From: Oscillospiraceae bacterium
Lineage (GTDB): Bacteria > Bacillota > Clostridia > Oscillospirales > Oscillospiraceae
Reading direction: 5' to 3'
Assembly: GCA_015068065.1 (NCBI GenBank)
Contig: SVLE01000002.1
Span: 19,172 to 83,171, forward strand
DNA: 64,000 nucleotides
The notes under the pieces were generated by a model, which was not told the origin of the DNA, ran no database searches, and worked only from the letters and a program-made list of their open reading frames with translations. Of the stretch, positions 38,416 to 50,823 are shown piece by piece. Position 1 is the first letter of the stretch. The number at the start of each line of letters is the position of its first letter. A program made the translations under genes and the position numbers.

Positions 38416-39764
38416 ATGAACAACGAACCCATCCGCGACGCACGCCAGCTGGGCATTCCCAAGATGCTCATTCTGGGCCTGCAGCACATGTTTGCCATGT
38501 TTGGCGCCACCATTCTGGTCCCCATCCTGGTGCAGAGCTACGGTCTGCCCCTGAATATCCAGACCACCCTGTTCTTCGCCGGTGTTGGCACCATTTTCTT
38601 CCACATCTGCGCCAAGATGAAGGTCCCCGCTTTCCTGGGTTCTTCCTTCGCATTCCTGGGCGGCTTTGCCACCATGGGCAGCATAACTTCCGGTATGTAT
38701 GAGAATATGCCTGCCGAAGAAAAGCTGGCCTACGCTCTGGGCGGCGTGGTGATCGCCGGTCTGGTGTACCTGGTTCTGGCTGCCATCATCAAGGTGGTAG
38801 GTGTGAAGAAGGTCATGCGCTTCCTGCCCCTGTGGTCACCGGTCCTATCATCATCTGCATCGGCCTGTCTCTGGCTCCCTCCGCCGTGACCAATGCCTCC
38901 AGCAACTGGCTGCTGGCCCTGATTGCTCTGGTTACCATCGTTATTTTCAATGTTTGGGGCAAGGGCATGTTCAAGATCATCCCCATCCTCATGGGCGTGG
39001 TTATCTCCTACGTGGCCGCCATCATCATGAACGCCTGCGGCATGACCAATGCCGACGGTTCCGCCATTCTGAACTTCACCGGTATCGCTTCTGCCAACTG
39101 GGTGGGTCTGCCCCCCTTCACCCTGGCCAAGTTTGACATCACCGCCATTCTGGTCATGGCCCCCATCGCTCTGGCTACCATGATGGAGCACATCGGCGAT
39201 ATGTCCGCCATCTCCGCCACTACCGAGCAGCCCTTCATGGAAGATCCCGGCCTGCACCGCACCCTGATCGGTGACGGTCTGGCCACCTCTCTGTCCGCCA
39301 TGTTCGGCGGCCCCGCCAACACCACCTATGGTGAGAATACCGGCGTGCTGGTGCTGTCCAACGTCCACGATCCCAAGGTCGTTCGTCTGGCTGCCGTGTT
39401 CGCCATCGTGCTGGGCTTCATCCCCAAGATGGCCGAAGTGATCGGCTCCATGCCCTCCGCTATCGTAGGCGGCGTGTCCTTCATCCTGTACGGTATGATC
39501 TCCGCCATCGGCGTGCGCAACATCGTGGAGAACAAGGTGGACTTCACCAACTCCCGCAACCTGATTATCGCCGCCGTCATTCTGGTGTGCGGCCTGGGCT
39601 TCTCCAGCGGCCTGACCTTCACCGTGGCCGGCACTCCTGTCACCCTGACCGGTCTGGCCATCGCCGCCATCGCCGGCATCGTTCTGAACGCCATCCTGCC
39701 CGGCAACGACTATGAGTTCGGCACCAACCCCGACGGCGATCAGAACCGCGGTATCCATCACTGA
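38416..39764 (+). pseudogene. uraA: uracil-xanthine permease (NCS2), frameshifted
   Basis: 38416..38889 encodes the N-terminal part and 38832..39764 continues (VTGPIIICIGLSLAP) in another frame; ...VMRFLP|PVVTGP... broken at CTGCCCCTGTGG (~38824-38834). Confidence 0.85.
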
Positions 39765-43312: not shown

Positions 43313-44431
43313 TCACTTCATCAGGTCGCGCAACACCTGATAGATGGTCTCACTTGCATTGGGCACCGCTGCGGCATTGAGTGCACGGGCCATATCCTCC
43401 CGACGTTTGGCGTCACCAAGCAGACCGGAAACCGTATCAAAGAGCACCGCGCCGGTGCAGTCCTTCTCCAAAAGAACCACAGCACCCTGCTGCTTCTCCA
43501 ACACCCGGGCGTTTTTCTCCTGATGATTGGCCGTCACGTTGGGGGACGGCACAAGAATACTCGGCTTTGCGATGGCAGTCAGTTCCGAAATGGTGGACGC
43601 ACCGGCCCGGCACAACACCACATCCGCCGCCGCCATGACAAGGGGCATGTCGTAGATATATTCCCGCACCTGCAGGTCTCCTTCACGGGCCTTCACCCCA
43701 CGCTTGTCCAACGCCTCCATAACGCGCTGATAATCCCGGCCTGCACCATGGATATGGTGGAATGGCGTTCCCGCCTTCTGCTCCAGTTCCATGAAGTCCA
43801 CGGTCTGGTCATTCATCACCCGTGCACCCAGAGAGCCCCAGTAAGACAACAACAAGGGCCGGTCATCGGTCAGGCCCAACTGCTGCCGTGCCTGAGCTTT
43901 GGTGTAGCGGAAAAAGTCTGCGCGCACCGGAGTTCCGGTGACGATCACCTTGTCCGGATCGTCATAATGGGCCCGACTGGCCTCAAATCCCACCAGCACC
44001 CGATCCACTACTTTGGACAGCGTCTTGGTTGTCAGCCCGGGAACAGCGTTAGACTCATGCACAGCGGTGGGAATGCCCCGCTTTGCCGCCTGCTTCACCA
44101 CCGGGTAGGATGCATATCCACCCGTACCCACGACCAGGTCTGGCTTGAATTCATCCAGAATATGTCGGGCCTGGCTCCGGGATCGCTGCATATTCACCAG
44201 TGTGCCCAGATTGTGGACAATATCCTTAGGCTTGAGCGAGCGGTGGAAGTTGGTAATGGTCACCGTGCGGATCTCATACCCCTCCTTGGGCACAAGGCGG
44301 GTCTCCATGCCGCCGTCCGCGCCCACAAAAAGCACCTTGCAGTCCGGGTGGCGCTCCTGAAACATGCGTGCCAGCGCCACCGCCGGATTGACATGACCGG
44401 CCGTTCCGCCGCAGGTAAAGAGAATATTCAT
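43313..44431 (-). CDS. murG: undecaprenyldiphospho-muramoylpentapeptide beta-N-acetylglucosaminyltransferase
   Basis: FTCGGTAGHVNPAVALA, VGTGGYASYPVVKQA, HESNAVPGLTTK, CRAGASTISEL. Confidence 0.97.
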   Translation of the reverse strand: MNILFTCGGTAGHVNPAVALARMFQERHPDCKVLFVGADGGMETRLVPKEGYEIRTVTITNFHRSLKPKDIVHNLGTLVNMQRSRSQARHILDEFKPDLVVGTGGYASYPVVKQAAKRGIPTAVHESNAVPGLTTKTLSKVVDRVLVGFEASRAHYDDPDKVIVTGTPVRADFFRYTKAQARQQLGLTDDRPLLLSYWGSLGARVMNDQTVDFMELEQKAGTPFHHIHGAGRDYQRVMEALDKRGVKAREGDLQVREYIYDMPLVMAAADVVLCRAGASTISELTAIAKPSILVPSPNVTANHQEKNARVLEKQQGAVVLLEKDCTGAVLFDTVSGLLGDAKRREDMARALNAAAVPNASETIYQVLRDLMK

Positions 44432-44530
44432 GGTTGTCTTCACTCCATCTTGTTTTGCGTGTCTGCCCCCTGCACTCAATCCTGTCAGGCTGCGGATTGA
44501 GCGCATGGCCGGGGCGCCTATCCTCCGCAC

Positions 44531-45751
44531 TCAATCCTGTTTGGGAGCCGGTATCTGTCTGGATATACTCAGCATAATTCCCACTTCTGCCAGTTGAATG
44601 ATCAGTGCTGTTCCGCCGTAGCTGAAGAAGGGCAGAGAGATACCCGTGTTGGGGATCAGATTGGTGACCACGCCGATGTTCAAAAACACCTGCACTGCGA
44701 ACAGGGTGGTGATTCCCACGCCCACCAGTGCACCGAACCGGTCGCGGGCGTGAAGAGCCAACCAGTATCCCCGCAGGATGAACAGCATAAACAGGATCAG
44801 GATCATTATTCCGCCGATCATGCCAAGCTCCTCCACCGCCACAGAGAAGATGAAGTCATTCTCCGCCTCGGGCAGAAACAGGAATTTCTGGCTGCTTTTG
44901 CCCAGTCCGCGTCCCAACAGGCCGCCCGACCCAATGGCATACAGAGACTGTATGGTCTGGTATCCCTTGCCAAGAGAGTCGCTCCACGGATCCAGCCACA
45001 GCTGGACGCGGGAGGTCATGTACGGAGTCATGGTGATCACGAACCACAGTCCGCCGGCCACCACACCGATGCCCAACGCAAACCACCGCAGGCTGATGCC
45101 CGCTGCGAACAGGACGGCAGCGCCGCCCGCCATGACCAGGATCGTACCGGACAGATGGGGTTCCAGCAGTAACAGGCCGGCAATGATTACCAACACAACG
45201 CCATAGGGAACCAATTCCATAAACCCGATCTTTTCCAGCCATGCACAGAAACGGCCCCAGCGTGTCCGCTTATTCCACTTGACTTTTTTCTTGTTAATGG
45301 CGTCCCGCTTGGAAAGACGGGCCGCAAAGTACAGAATCACCGCGATTTTGGCGATCTCCGAGGGTTGGAAGGTGGGACCGGCCACCAGCAACAGCTTCAG
45401 CCAGCGCTGGGCGCCGTTCAGGGTCACACCAAGAGGAGTGGGGACCAGTGCCAGCAGTACTATCGAACCGATCAGCGCAGGCAGGGACAGGATGCGCAGA
45501 TACTGATAATTGAATTTGGAAACCCCGTACATAACCGCAAGACCGATCAGCGCGTACCGGGTCTGTGCAATGGCATAGGCCAGTGGCGAGTCCGTCTTCG
45601 GGTCATAATAAGCCGTGGCATAGGAGGCAGACAGCACCATGATCAGCCCCACACCCAGCAGCAGCAGGGTCAGCATCAGCAGCGGCAGATCCACCGGTCC
45701 GCGGGCCAGTTGTTCTTCCACCGTCAGGTCACGTTTTGCTTTTCGGGCCAC
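44531..45751 (-). CDS. ftsW: SEDS-family peptidoglycan polymerase (FtsW/SpoVE)
   Basis: SEDS topology; LLVAGPTFQPSEIAKIAVI; FIFSVAVEELGMIGG; LIPNTGISLPFFSYGGTALI. Confidence 0.95.
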   Translation of the reverse strand: MARKAKRDLTVEEQLARGPVDLPLLMLTLLLLGVGLIMVLSASYATAYYDPKTDSPLAYAIAQTRYALIGLAVMYGVSKFNYQYLRILSLPALIGSIVLLALVPTPLGVTLNGAQRWLKLLLVAGPTFQPSEIAKIAVILYFAARLSKRDAINKKKVKWNKRTRWGRFCAWLEKIGFMELVPYGVVLVIIAGLLLLEPHLSGTILVMAGGAAVLFAAGISLRWFALGIGVVAGGLWFVITMTPYMTSRVQLWLDPWSDSLGKGYQTIQSLYAIGSGGLLGRGLGKSSQKFLFLPEAENDFIFSVAVEELGMIGGIMILILFMLFILRGYWLALHARDRFGALVGVGITTLFAVQVFLNIGVVTNLIPNTGISLPFFSYGGTALIIQLAEVGIMLSISRQIPAPKQD

Positions 45752-45812: not shown

Positions 45813-46805
45813 TCAAAGTACAATTCGATCCATCACGCCCCAGAACGCCAGCAGACACATGAGCATGGTGATCAGGGAGAATACGCAAAACAGCTTGACT
45901 TCGCTCCAGCCACCCATTTCCAGATGGTGGTGCAGGGGAGCCATGCGGAAGATTCGCTTGCCGTGGCTCAACTTGAAGTAAGTGACCTGAATGATGTCGG
46001 AAAGTACTTCGGCCACATAGATAATACCAATGACCGGTATGATCAGTGGGATATTCAGGGCAAAGGCCATGCCGCACACCGCGCCTCCCAGAAACAGAGA
46101 GCCGGTGTCTCCCATAAACACCTTGGCCGGGTGGAAATTAAACAGCAAAAATGCCGTCAGACCACCTGCCAGCGCCGCAGCAAACAATCCCAGTTCCGTG
46201 TAGCCGTACCACGCCGCCACCGCCACATAGAACAGCGCCACCGGAATGGTCACACCGGCCGCCAGGCCGTCCACACCGTCCGTGATGTTGACCGCGTTAA
46301 CGGTAGCCACCATAACAAAGGCAGCAAACACCATGTATACCGGCCAGGACAGGATCAGTTCCACACCCAAAAAGGGAATGTACAGATTGGGCGTCAGTAG
46401 GCCCAGATGGCGCAGCAGCACTGTAAATGCAATAGACGCGGACAGCTGAAGCAGAAACTTCTGAGGAGCGGTCAGACCTGTGTTGTGGTGATGCTTCACC
46501 TTTTCGTAGTCATCCACAAATCCGATCACACCGAACACCAGCGCAAACAGAAATACCAGCAGATGGGCCACGTGCCCGTACAGCATCAGCTGCCAGCCCG
46601 CCACGATCAGCGCCACACCGATGCCTGCAATGAACATCAGGCCGCCCATGGTGGGCGTACCCTGTTTCGACATATGCCAGGTTGGGCCGATTTCCTTGAT
46701 AGACTGCCCCGCCTTCAGCGCCCGCAGTACAGGAATCAAAACTTTCCCAAGCACCGCCGAAACCACAAAGGCTACAATAAAACTAACGATCAATGACATG
46801 GTCAA
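45813..46805 (-). CDS. mraY: phospho-N-acetylmuramoyl-pentapeptide-transferase
   Basis: KQGTPTMGGLMFI, FVDDYEKV, NAVNITDGVDGLAAG, FMGDTGSL, HHHLEMGGWSE. Confidence 0.98.
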   Translation of the reverse strand: MTMSLIVSFIVAFVVSAVLGKVLIPVLRALKAGQSIKEIGPTWHMSKQGTPTMGGLMFIAGIGVALIVAGWQLMLYGHVAHLLVFLFALVFGVIGFVDDYEKVKHHHNTGLTAPQKFLLQLSASIAFTVLLRHLGLLTPNLYIPFLGVELILSWPVYMVFAAFVMVATVNAVNITDGVDGLAAGVTIPVALFYVAVAAWYGYTELGLFAAALAGGLTAFLLFNFHPAKVFMGDTGSLFLGGAVCGMAFALNIPLIIPVIGIIYVAEVLSDIIQVTYFKLSHGKRIFRMAPLHHHLEMGGWSEVKLFCVFSLITMLMCLLAFWGVMDRIVL

Positions 46806-46841: not shown

Positions 46842-48245
46842 TCATCTGCCGGTTGGGATTCTTTTCTCTTTTAAAATGCGATGGTGCGCGCAGATGCAAC
46901 TGCGGATAAACTCCCGCTCATCCGGCTGAGCCGACTTCTCTGCCTGCTCATCCGGCGGACCTGCAAATACGATCACATCACCCGGCCCGGCCTGTTCCAG
47001 CGCATATCGCACCGCTTTGGACCGGTCTGCCTCCACAACACAGGGCCGCTGCCACGCGCCCATGCCCTCACGCACATCATTAATAATATCTGTCCGGCCA
47101 CGCCGGGTCAAGTTACTTCCCGTCAGCACGACCCGGTCCGAAAGTTGCTCAGCCACACTACCCATGCCCACACGAACTGCCGACGCACCCTGCTCGTTGC
47201 AGCCAAGCACACATACAAGCTGCCCCGCCGTAAATTCACGGGCACTGGTCAATAATTTTTCCAGGCTCTGCGGGCAGTCCGCCCGATCCAGCACCACAGT
47301 GTAGGCCGCCGGTACGCTCAGCACTTCCATCCGCCCCTGTGGCCCCTGTACACAGCGCATCACTCTGGCCATCCGTTCCCACTTCAGGCCGAGGCACAGG
47401 CCGCAGGAAAGGGCACACAATCCGTGATATAAGGAAAATCCCCCGGGCACCGGCAGGTGAATGCGCTGCACATGACCCACAGCAACCGCTTCAAACTCCA
47501 TATGTCCGGGATAAAGCCGCAGATTTTTTGCCGTCAGGTCGGCACAGGTTTTATTTTCAGAATAAGTAAAGGTGTGTTCCGGGATGATATCAGCATAATC
47601 CTCCCAGTCTTTCTCGTCAAGATTCAGCACCACCGTATCGCTGGCACACAACAGACCGGAAAGTTCCTCCCTGCCGCTCACCGGGCCGGTCAGTGCCGTT
47701 ACACTCATCCGCAAACCACTGTAGAGTCGCCGCTCCATCCCTGTTTGATCCAGCTGTATGATCACATGGGTGCAGCGTGCATCCGCCATCCGCCGCAACA
47801 CGGCCTGTAACTGCACACAACTGTCCATCCACCGGCCCCGGGGCAGTTCTACTCCCCGAAACCGTATCCCATTGGGAGCAACAGTACCCACACGGGTATG
47901 GGGCATTCGTTCCAGCATCGCCCGCATCAGATGGACCACCAGATCGCCTTCTCCATCCCCGGCAACACAAATCAGAGTCATATTCCGGGCCGGATGACAA
48001 AACCAGTTCCCTGCCATCACCCCAAGGGTCTTCCATGGATCCTCTCCCCCGGGAACAATCGCCGCAGCACCCAGGTTTCTTGCCTGCACTCCGGTCAGTC
48101 CGCTGCCGGGCAGCTCCACAAATGCAGACCCGTACAGTTCATCCTCCGCCGCAGCAGAAATGGAATTTATTTCCAGTTCCGGGTCCAGCCGCCCTCCCTC
48201 AAGGGGTAGGCCGGCCATAAGGTCGCGCAATTTCAAGCCTGTCAC
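46842..48245 (-). CDS. MurE-like Mur-ligase-fold protein with degenerate catalytic motifs
   Basis: N-terminal MurE-like GSAFVELPGSGLTGVQARNLGAAAIV and domain order; P-loop reads CVAGDGEGDLVVHL; sits at the murE position between spoVD and mraY. Confidence 0.75.
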   Translation of the reverse strand: MTGLKLRDLMAGLPLEGGRLDPELEINSISAAAEDELYGSAFVELPGSGLTGVQARNLGAAAIVPGGEDPWKTLGVMAGNWFCHPARNMTLICVAGDGEGDLVVHLMRAMLERMPHTRVGTVAPNGIRFRGVELPRGRWMDSCVQLQAVLRRMADARCTHVIIQLDQTGMERRLYSGLRMSVTALTGPVSGREELSGLLCASDTVVLNLDEKDWEDYADIIPEHTFTYSENKTCADLTAKNLRLYPGHMEFEAVAVGHVQRIHLPVPGGFSLYHGLCALSCGLCLGLKWERMARVMRCVQGPQGRMEVLSVPAAYTVVLDRADCPQSLEKLLTSAREFTAGQLVCVLGCNEQGASAVRVGMGSVAEQLSDRVVLTGSNLTRRGRTDIINDVREGMGAWQRPCVVEADRSKAVRYALEQAGPGDVIVFAGPPDEQAEKSAQPDEREFIRSCICAHHRILKEKRIPTGR

Positions 48246-48279: not shown

Positions 48280-50724
48280 TTATTCCAGAGGGGTATATGC
48301 GTCGGTCACACTGGTGTCCACAAACCGGACAGGAATCACCGTTCCGCGATCCACCAATTCTCCCGCACCCACGCTCTGATCCAGCGCATGGGTGGCCGCG
48401 CTGTAGTAGGATACGCCGGAGGCGCGCAGGTACAAGCCCTGCTCATTGAGCCGTTTTTTCGCCTGATCGTAGGTCAGGCCTTTCAGATTGGGCACGGGCA
48501 CCTGATCCGCAGGAGCTTCCTCACCCATATACAGGATCACTGTGCTGTTGCCGGGAACACTGGCACCCACCGCGGGGATCTGGCCGGTCACCACAGTTCC
48601 GTCACCCACCGTGCGGCAGGTAAGGTTTTTGCGTTTGAGAGCTGCTTTTGCCGTATCCAGATCATAGCCTGTCAGCTTGGGCACGGACACATCTGCCGCC
48701 GCAGCCTCGGCTTCGGTATACTGGCGCTCCACGCCCAGATAATCCAGTACATTGGCGATCAGCTGACCGGCCAGAGGGGCCGCCATCTGACCACCGCTGA
48801 TGTAATAGCCGGTGGAGCCATACTTGCTTCTGGGAGACGCGTGCTTGGGCGTGTCAAAGTAGAGCAGGGCGATCACCTGAGGATCGTTGGCCGGAGCAAA
48901 TCCCACAAAGGACACGATTTCCTCGTCATACACACCCACTTCGCCTTCTGCGGTACCCGTTTTTCCGCCGATACGATAGCCCGCCACATAGGCGTTGCGT
49001 CCCGTGCCCTCGGCAACCACGCTTTCCAGAATTTCCGCCGCCCGGCGGCTGGTCTGTTCACTGACCACCTGCCGCACCACGGTGGGCTCGTTCTGGTGAA
49101 GGATGGTCCCCTGTGCGTCACTGACGGACTTGAGCACATAGGGCTGCATCAGATAGCCGCCGTTCACAGTGGCAGAAAAGGCACTGAGCAGCTGAAGGGG
49201 ACTTACGGTAAAGCGCTGACCAAAGGAAGCGGTAGCAAGAGACAGATAGCCCTCCGCACTGGTGAAAAACTCCCGTCCCCAGTCAATTCCCTTTGCCTCG
49301 CCAGGCAGATCGATCCCCGTGATCTCGGTCAGTCCAAAGGACTCAAAATAGTCATAAAACTTCTCTGCACCCAGCTTCTGACCAATCATCATAAATGCGG
49401 GGTTGCAGGAATTCTGTACCGCTTCGGCCAGAGTCTGATCTCCGTGTCCGCTGCGTTCGGAGCAGGCAATGCTCCTGCCGTTGACCACGTAGAAACCCGG
49501 GCAGTAGAAATGGTCGCTGTCGGAGATGACTCCCGCTTCCAGTGCAGCAGCCAGCACCACAGATTTGAAGGTAGAGCCCGGTTCATAGGTATCGTTGAGC
49601 ACCTTACTGCGCCACTGCTTGTTCAGCGCCGCTCCAATGGCGGTATTTTTCGCCTTGGCCTGCAACTGCTCATCAGTCAGGGGAGTCCCATCCTCGTTTT
49701 TCAGTCCCTGCGTTTTCAGATTTTCATACTCCCGCTGGGTTTGGGCCGCAGCCTGTGCGTTCAGCGTTTCGTCATAGATGGTGCCGTAGCTGTTCAGGTC
49801 ATAGTTGGGTGCACTGGCCATACCCAGCACGGCGCCCGTCTTGGGATTCATGACCACGCAGATACCGCCGTTCTGCACCTCGTATTTCTCAATGCCCGCA
49901 GCCAGCGCCTGCTCAGCCATACGCTGGATGGAGGCGTCGATGGTCAGGGTGATATCATTTCCGTCCACAGCATCGATGTAGTCGGAATAACTGTTGTAGA
50001 TTTCCGTACCTGCGCCGGTCTTGCTGGTGACCACACGGCCGGAGGTCCCCTCCAGCACGTCCTCATAGGCGGCCTCCACACCGTAAGCACCGCCATTTTC
50101 ATTCACAAAGCCCACAATGTGCGAGGCAACGTTGGAATAGGGATAGTAGCGTTTGGTGGTTGGGGTCATGATCAGCGAGTAACCCAGCTTATTTTCCGAA
50201 ATAAAAGTCTGAAGTTCCTCCGCCTGCTCCCCTTCAATATTCTTTTTCAGGACCTCATATTGGGAGTTGGTCCGTTCCATTCGCTTGATGACCGAATCCC
50301 GATCCAGTTCCAGTACGGAACACACCTTATCCGCGATCAAATCCCGTCTTTCCTGAATGGCGGCATTGTAGGCCTGCTCATCCAGTACACCCTCATCGTC
50401 CTTGAATTTTCTCTGGTCGATGCTGTTGATCAGATCCAGAGGAGACAGGATCAGATTATACACTGTGGCCGACATTGCCAGCACATTCCCGCTGCTGTCC
50501 AGAATGGTCCCCCGGTTGGATCGAACTTCCACGTCCCGGGTGGACTGGTTGAGCTGGCGCATCTGGTATTCCTCGTGATGAACGATGGCAATATCCCACA
50601 ACTTCCATCCCAACGGGATAAAGGACAACACGCCGAAAATTACCATCAAACACACGGTTCTCCGGAAGATCAGCTGCTTGGATGTGCGCTCTTTGCGCTG
50701 TCTTTGTTCCAGTCTGTCCGCCAT
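48280..50724 (-). CDS. spoVD: SpoVD/FtsI-type class B penicillin-binding protein with two PASTA domains
   Basis: YEPGSTFKSVVLAAALE (SxxK), GGKTGTAEGEVG (KTG), two C-terminal PASTA repeats. Confidence 0.93.
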   Translation of the reverse strand: MADRLEQRQRKERTSKQLIFRRTVCLMVIFGVLSFIPLGWKLWDIAIVHHEEYQMRQLNQSTRDVEVRSNRGTILDSSGNVLAMSATVYNLILSPLDLINSIDQRKFKDDEGVLDEQAYNAAIQERRDLIADKVCSVLELDRDSVIKRMERTNSQYEVLKKNIEGEQAEELQTFISENKLGYSLIMTPTTKRYYPYSNVASHIVGFVNENGGAYGVEAAYEDVLEGTSGRVVTSKTGAGTEIYNSYSDYIDAVDGNDITLTIDASIQRMAEQALAAGIEKYEVQNGGICVVMNPKTGAVLGMASAPNYDLNSYGTIYDETLNAQAAAQTQREYENLKTQGLKNEDGTPLTDEQLQAKAKNTAIGAALNKQWRSKVLNDTYEPGSTFKSVVLAAALEAGVISDSDHFYCPGFYVVNGRSIACSERSGHGDQTLAEAVQNSCNPAFMMIGQKLGAEKFYDYFESFGLTEITGIDLPGEAKGIDWGREFFTSAEGYLSLATASFGQRFTVSPLQLLSAFSATVNGGYLMQPYVLKSVSDAQGTILHQNEPTVVRQVVSEQTSRRAAEILESVVAEGTGRNAYVAGYRIGGKTGTAEGEVGVYDEEIVSFVGFAPANDPQVIALLYFDTPKHASPRSKYGSTGYYISGGQMAAPLAGQLIANVLDYLGVERQYTEAEAAAADVSVPKLTGYDLDTAKAALKRKNLTCRTVGDGTVVTGQIPAVGASVPGNSTVILYMGEEAPADQVPVPNLKGLTYDQAKKRLNEQGLYLRASGVSYYSAATHALDQSVGAGELVDRGTVIPVRFVDTSVTDAYTPLE

Positions 50725-50823
50725 CATTTCACCTCCCTGTTATGGTCAAAAGGGCGCAAGAAGCATTTTCTTGCGCCCTCTCATTGAAGTCTTCTATCTG
50801 TCTGGTCCACTATATGTGCCCGG

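Follow-up and report, generated by a model that had tools for sequence, protein, structure and literature searches.

MurE, the UDP-MurNAc-L-Ala-D-Glu:meso-DAP ligase (E. coli structure 1e8c, T. maritima structure 4bub; family TIGR01085), is a three-domain enzyme found in the dcw operon. The Mur ligase fold can also serve outside the MurC-F steps, as in MurT of the MurT/GatD amidotransferase, a Mur-ligase-fold protein that has a P-loop. MurT works with its partner GatD as an active ATP-dependent enzyme (PMC6085368), unlike the protein described here, and a Bordetella MurE-MurF fusion (8f5d), which binds MurG (PMC6420597), differs from it in that both halves are active enzymes. In land plants, the MurE-like subunit PAP11 of the plastid-encoded RNA polymerase represents a MurE that has turned from peptidoglycan ligation to a structural role. 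The Arabidopsis MurE does not rescue a moss mutant, and a different function, in chloroplast transcription, has been proposed; most seed-plant MurE homologues still keep the DNPR motif (PMC9434261). Our search of the open-access literature turned up no description of a bacterial MurE pseudoenzyme, and the terms MurE1 and MurE2 returned unrelated papers.

Here, we analyze a gene in the dcw operon of an Oscillospiraceae genome, contained in a 64,000-nucleotide stretch of DNA (the window), whose product shares with MurE its dcw position and its three-domain order and is homologous to it over the C-terminal two thirds. In contrast to MurE, every catalytic and substrate-binding motif tested is lost. 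The protein, hereafter pseudo-MurE, is very probably catalytically dead and yet retained, judging from its sequence and that of its relatives.

The initial annotation had described an uninterrupted ORF between spoVD and mraY, giving no strand. The ORF is indeed intact, with 467 codons from a GTG on the minus strand, and is separated by 34 bp from spoVD and by 36 bp from the mraY ORF within the order mraZ-mraW-ftsL-spoVD-ORF-mraY-ftsW-murG-murA-ftsQ-ftsZ (Table 1). Its true start may be a TTG at codon 4 (48236; 464 aa), more likely than the GTG at 48245, as an AGGGG lies about 8 nt upstream and the resulting N-terminus matches the MKLRDLL start of orthologues. The cluster does lack murD and murF, as had been claimed, but this is ordinary: the relatives that were checked have spoVD-murE-mraY-ftsW-murG, likewise without both. 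Elsewhere in the window, a uracil/xanthine-permease-like gene on the plus strand (38416-39764) is split across two frames near 38830-38890, from frame 1 into frame 3, which reflects either a frameshift mutation or a sequencing error in the assembly.

Table 1. Features of the pseudo-MurE locus and related loci (window positions unless a locus is named)
Feature	Position	Strand	Basis or remark
Pseudo-MurE (dcw-located MurE paralogue, MurE1)	46842..48245	-	ORF, families, motif table, dN/dS, structure model
Lost P-loop position, residues 96-102, GDGEGDL for GTNGKTT	47940..47960	-	alignment
Lost meso-DAP recognition motif position, residues 377-380, SNLT for DNPR	47106..47117	-	alignment
Retained core, probably under selection, residues 226-350	47196..47570	-	dN/dS, conservation, structure model
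N-terminal UDP-binding domain, residues 1-88, degenerate in the window protein	47982..48245	-	ortholog comparison
spoVD (transpeptidase), upstream neighbor	48280..50727	-	ORF, neighborhood comparison
mraY, downstream neighbor, own strong Shine-Dalgarno GGGGGAGG	45813..46805	-	
ftsW/spoVE	44531..45751	-	ORF, neighborhood comparison
murG	43313..44530	-	ORF, neighborhood comparison
MurE2 of the window genome (G000)	L009:6210-7685		adjoins dapF
g7 mini-MurE loci	L153 820-2049, L154, L155, L156		

Profile searches confirmed that pseudo-MurE is homologous to MurE, with similarity far beyond chance. Pfam Mur_ligase_C (71.4 bits, E = 1.6e-19) and Mur_ligase_M (28.1 bits, E = 2.4e-6) scored above their cut-offs of 28.4 and 24 bits, respectively, and MurE chains in the PDB matched with E-values down to 2.1e-24, mostly over residues 265-433. 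NCBIfam MurE models also matched, with E-values down to 1e-45, but every score fell below the model cut-off, the best reaching 156 of 373 bits and the murE model TIGR01085 giving 145.6 against 257.3. By descent and predicted fold, pseudo-MurE belongs to the Mur ligase superfamily, and it scores below the TIGR01085 cut-off for MurE ligases (EC 6.3.2.13).

We aligned pseudo-MurE with E. coli K-12 MurE, the MurE2 of the same genome, six degenerate orthologues and the intact orthologues, naming sites from the established biochemistry of E. coli MurE. The P-loop GTNGKTT reads GDGEGDL, the pair at E. coli T158/T159 is WM instead of TT, EVSSHGL has become QLDQTGM, R193 is replaced by leucine, and the DH motif is deleted, NLSRDHLDYH being reduced to GPVS plus a deletion. 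The site of the carbamylated lysine (E. coli K225) is a leucine, DYA reads DRA, and the DAP-recognition sites have changed from R390 to G, from DNPR to SNLT and from GKGHE to GPPDE. Judged against E. coli MurE and 51 intact orthologues, all the motif losses that the initial annotation had read by eye are correct. A shifted but intact P-loop was ruled out by both the alignment and a pattern search.

The window genome (G000; 1.68 Mb in 71 contigs, 87.6% complete) carries five further Mur-ligase-type genes, encoding MurE2, MurF, MurD, MurC and a CapB/PgsB-like protein. MurE2 (491 aa) is encoded directly after dapF, scores 444 bits to murE and keeps GTKGKTT, DNPR and GKGHE, which rules out that the genome has no other MurE. 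MurF adjoins a ddl-like gene and MurC lies just outside the window on the same contig; MurF, MurD and MurC were named from sequence and neighbors. With intact MurC, D, E and F all found outside the dcw cluster, the organism can make a DAP-type precursor without the pseudo-MurE gene. The CapB/PgsB-like gene, for a Mur-ligase-fold protein of the poly-gamma-glutamate synthase type (likewise named from sequence), sits at a contig end (L012:1114-2262; G000:C71).

All 64 genomes of the genus have a gene at the position between spoVD and mraY. GTNGKTT is kept by the dcw MurE (MurE1) of 57, and the other seven carry a dead MurE1, in each case between spoVD and mraY and without stops. The motif state is all-or-none: across 58 loci, 51 have all five tested motifs and seven have none. 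Among the matches listed, the P-loop pattern in the seven genomes fell on MurE2, plus one unrelated position in G314. The equivalents of the UDP-MurNAc contacts S29, T158/T159, S185 and R193 are lost in all seven dead copies, and the motif loss of the window protein is common to its six orthologues. Because the same state recurs in seven separate metagenome assemblies, a single-genome artefact or assembly error is ruled out.

The six relatives with a dead copy are the Oscillospiraceae MAGs RGIG5427 (sheep), RGIG8567 (water deer), RGIG1669 and RGIG1833 (goat), RGIG9422 (yak) and SIG489; a gut host is given in the five titled records and none is stated for the window's record and SIG489, and all seven members are known from metagenome assemblies alone. 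Intact relatives are Pseudoflavonifractor, Lawsonibacter, Flintibacter, Flavonifractor and Intestinimonas. Identity to the window protein over the alignment is 61% in G312 and 59% in G313, 45-47% in G309, G310 and G311 (335-337 aa, N-terminal domain gone) and 39% in G314 (378 aa); four of the seven copies have lost all or nearly all of the N-terminal UDP-binding domain. In a tree built from SpoVD, MraY, FtsW and MurG (47 taxa, 1,876 columns), the seven dead-copy genomes form one clade with a support of 1.0, showing that the catalytic motifs of MurE1 were lost once and that the clade then diversified. The three genomes with the shortest pseudo-MurE (G309, G310 and G311; L075, L074 and L073) differ from the rest of the clade in showing no murA between murG and ftsQ.

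A contig search with the single pseudo-MurE protein gave no match, and an alignment of all seven was needed. We looked for parallel dead copies in weak-scoring genera, among them g7 and g66, both of which have a MurE above the cut-off. Four incomplete genomes (G048, G069, G085 and G107) gave only fragmentary or weak matches.

MurE2 is intact in all seven dead-copy genomes, where it is 77-87% identical to the MurE2 of the window genome. In total it is found in 14 of the 64 genus genomes, the other seven having an active MurE1. Two active MurE genes therefore coexist in relatives, and a dead copy is found only in genomes in which MurE2 can stand in for it; because there was a single loss, the association counts as one event and is not statistically independent evidence. 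Under a strict cut-off, 9 of 106 sampled genera of the family have a MurE2-like gene. The dapF-linked MurE2 is patchy across the family and has the motif variants GTKGKTT, ASSQGF and DHIGDGEH (L009, L082-L089).

Estimates of dN/dS (Nei-Gojobori) among the dead copies are well below 1, at 0.19-0.27 within G309/G310/G311 and within G000/G312/G313 and up to 0.40 against G314, exact values being rough because synonymous distances approach saturation in the deeper pairs. MraY gives 0.09-0.19 in the same within-subclade pairs. Over residues 261-350 of the dead copies dN/dS falls to 0.07-0.17, although in most pairs dS is no lower there than in the rest of the gene, and this combination of free synonymous sites and low dN/dS shows purifying selection on the protein and not on the DNA. 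Neutral drift simulated to the observed distances would have left about 5-13 in-frame stops per copy, where we observed none in seven copies. Pseudo-MurE evolves faster than its neighbors, which also fits a dispensable or weakly constrained role.

Constraint within the protein has moved, with the catalytic half drifting and residues 226-350 still conserved. We compared sites that are at least 95% fixed in active orthologues: of 58 such sites across residues 91-225, all seven dead copies keep 5 and all seven have lost 26, while across residues 226-350 all seven keep 33 of 64. Mean pairwise identity over residues 76-225 is 0.29-0.44 among dead copies versus 0.71-0.81 among active ones; over residues 226-350 the dead copies reach 0.64-0.78, and residues 276-300 are more conserved among them than among active proteins (0.68 vs 0.55). 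This contrast between blocks is clear but not extreme, since 12 of 379 circular shifts score as high, and part of the conserved core is what active MurE1 conserves too. Nine derived residues are identical in all seven copies (P124, G187, E211, L242, H274, C277, L309, A313 and L347), and the core holds the derived-invariant H274, C277, L309, A313 and L347. Fixation of these nine residues would not be expected from unconstrained sequence.

An AlphaFold model from an 83-sequence alignment (pLDDT 89.6, pTM 0.86) superposes on MurE, although the similarity of fold is partly built in because the alignment included active MurE orthologues; a model built from just the seven dead copies had a pLDDT of 66. 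The nearest solved structures are T. maritima MurE (4bub, TM 0.83) and PAP11 (8r6s_Q, TM 0.80), the latter being the best structural match with the lowest E-value (7.4e-33). PAP11 is the nearest precedent for pseudo-MurE, the likeness being one of fold alone: it is a plant protein with terminal extensions that acts in a transcription complex, whereas pseudo-MurE is encoded in a dcw operon, has lost its motifs more completely than the plant homologues and is of independent origin. In the model, residues 237-265 of the core form a small three-stranded antiparallel sheet and residues 272-297 a pair of helices, and residues 316-349 make up the first strand-helix-strand of the C-terminal domain.

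A mirror case is found in the genus g7 of the same family, in which the dcw MurE of four species (G111, G176, G226 and G006) is about 410 aa long. This mini-MurE keeps the P-loop, YAH, DNPR and GKGHE and is without the small three-stranded antiparallel sheet of the central domain. MurE catalysis would apparently not need the sheet, and the fact that the dead copies keep it is the more telling for that.

The central claim of the initial annotation, that the gene encodes a MurE homologue which is intact and retained yet catalytically dead and serves some non-ligase role, has withstood the profile, genome, orthologue, dN/dS and AlphaFold comparisons. Since seven species keep a motif-less copy as a protein, it probably holds or steers other proteins. 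Once a retained dead protein is granted, an interaction or scaffold role is reasonably likely, and we lean, slightly less firmly, toward the reading as a whole, in which a bona fide bacterial pseudo-MurE acts as a protein-interaction module. The dcw MurE would have become redundant because the lineage also had an intact meso-DAP-type MurE2 beside dapF, and binding of ATP, UDP-MurNAc and DAP would have been lost a single time, in the common ancestor of the small-genome Oscillospiraceae from herbivore guts that make up the clade. The dead copy would then have been kept as a protein while MurE2 does the enzymatic work, and would act without catalysis as an interaction module of the cytoplasmic peptidoglycan and division machinery, binding a candidate partner (MurE2, MurF, MurG or MraY) through the surface of residues 226-350. 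We infer the cytoplasmic peptidoglycan context from gene position, and the interaction function and the identity of the partner likewise by inference. By analogy, the presence of MurE in physical Mur complexes, such as that of the Bordetella MurE-MurF with MurG, makes a non-catalytic scaffold derived from MurE plausible.

A special case of the interaction module would be an allosteric or stabilizing partner of MurE2, tuning it within a hetero-oligomer. Pseudoenzyme/enzyme paralogue pairs are common among pseudoenzymes, and every dead-copy genome also has MurE2; however, a genome with a dead MurE1 needs a working MurE in any case, which already accounts for their joint presence, MurE2 also accompanies an active MurE1 in seven further genomes, and nothing computed links the two proteins, so we regard this narrower version as unlikely. 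More improbable still is that the frame is kept for operon reasons alone, whether to couple translation to that of mraY, to protect against polarity or to house an internal promoter or RNA element. The short gaps to both neighbors and a weak promoter-like site at 47111-47083 would suit such a role, but in the core the synonymous sites vary as freely as in the rest of the gene and the amino acids are held, mraY has its own strong Shine-Dalgarno sequence, and the three shortest members lack the stretch of protein that overlies the promoter-like site. An Rfam search gave no match, and together with the free synonymous sites this led us to reject a nucleotide-level element.

The initial annotation had also offered a non-ligase sensor of UDP-MurNAc-peptide, and a sensor of this ligand or of a nucleotide now seems very improbable. 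The longest members retain the Mur ligase fold in the predicted model, and the Asn aligned with H274, at the adenine-contacting position in Mur ligases, is uniformly His and so has changed in one fixed way. Against this, the P-loop and the UDP-MurNAc and DAP contacts are lost and the UDP-binding domain is mostly or wholly gone in four of the seven copies. Faster evolution than the neighbors and the loss or near-loss of the N-terminal domain in four members might suggest a redundant gene in decay that is stop-free by chance, but this equally improbable account is already contradicted by seven species of one ancient origin without stops or frameshifts, the stops that drift would have introduced, a dN/dS of about 0.2 (down to 0.07 in the core) and derived residues fixed in every copy.

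Annotation pipelines that call murE by dcw position would misname pseudo-MurE and miss the real MurE beside dapF. It has long been asked whether the cytoplasmic Mur ligases associate physically in a complex with MurG, MraY and the divisome, and tests are difficult since the cell cannot do without the chemistry of any of these ligases. A naturally occurring MurE that has lost its chemistry but not the protein would separate the two functions, in that whatever pseudo-MurE still binds would reflect the structural role. We tentatively raise the further possibility that MurE has here been split into two jobs, with catalysis assigned to MurE2 and the dcw copy left as a dedicated non-catalytic assembly factor with one constrained module. 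If so, the dcw MurE would always have carried a separable structural function in a division/peptidoglycan complex, and the sheet of the constrained module would be the very part that is missing from the motif-intact mini-MurE of g7.
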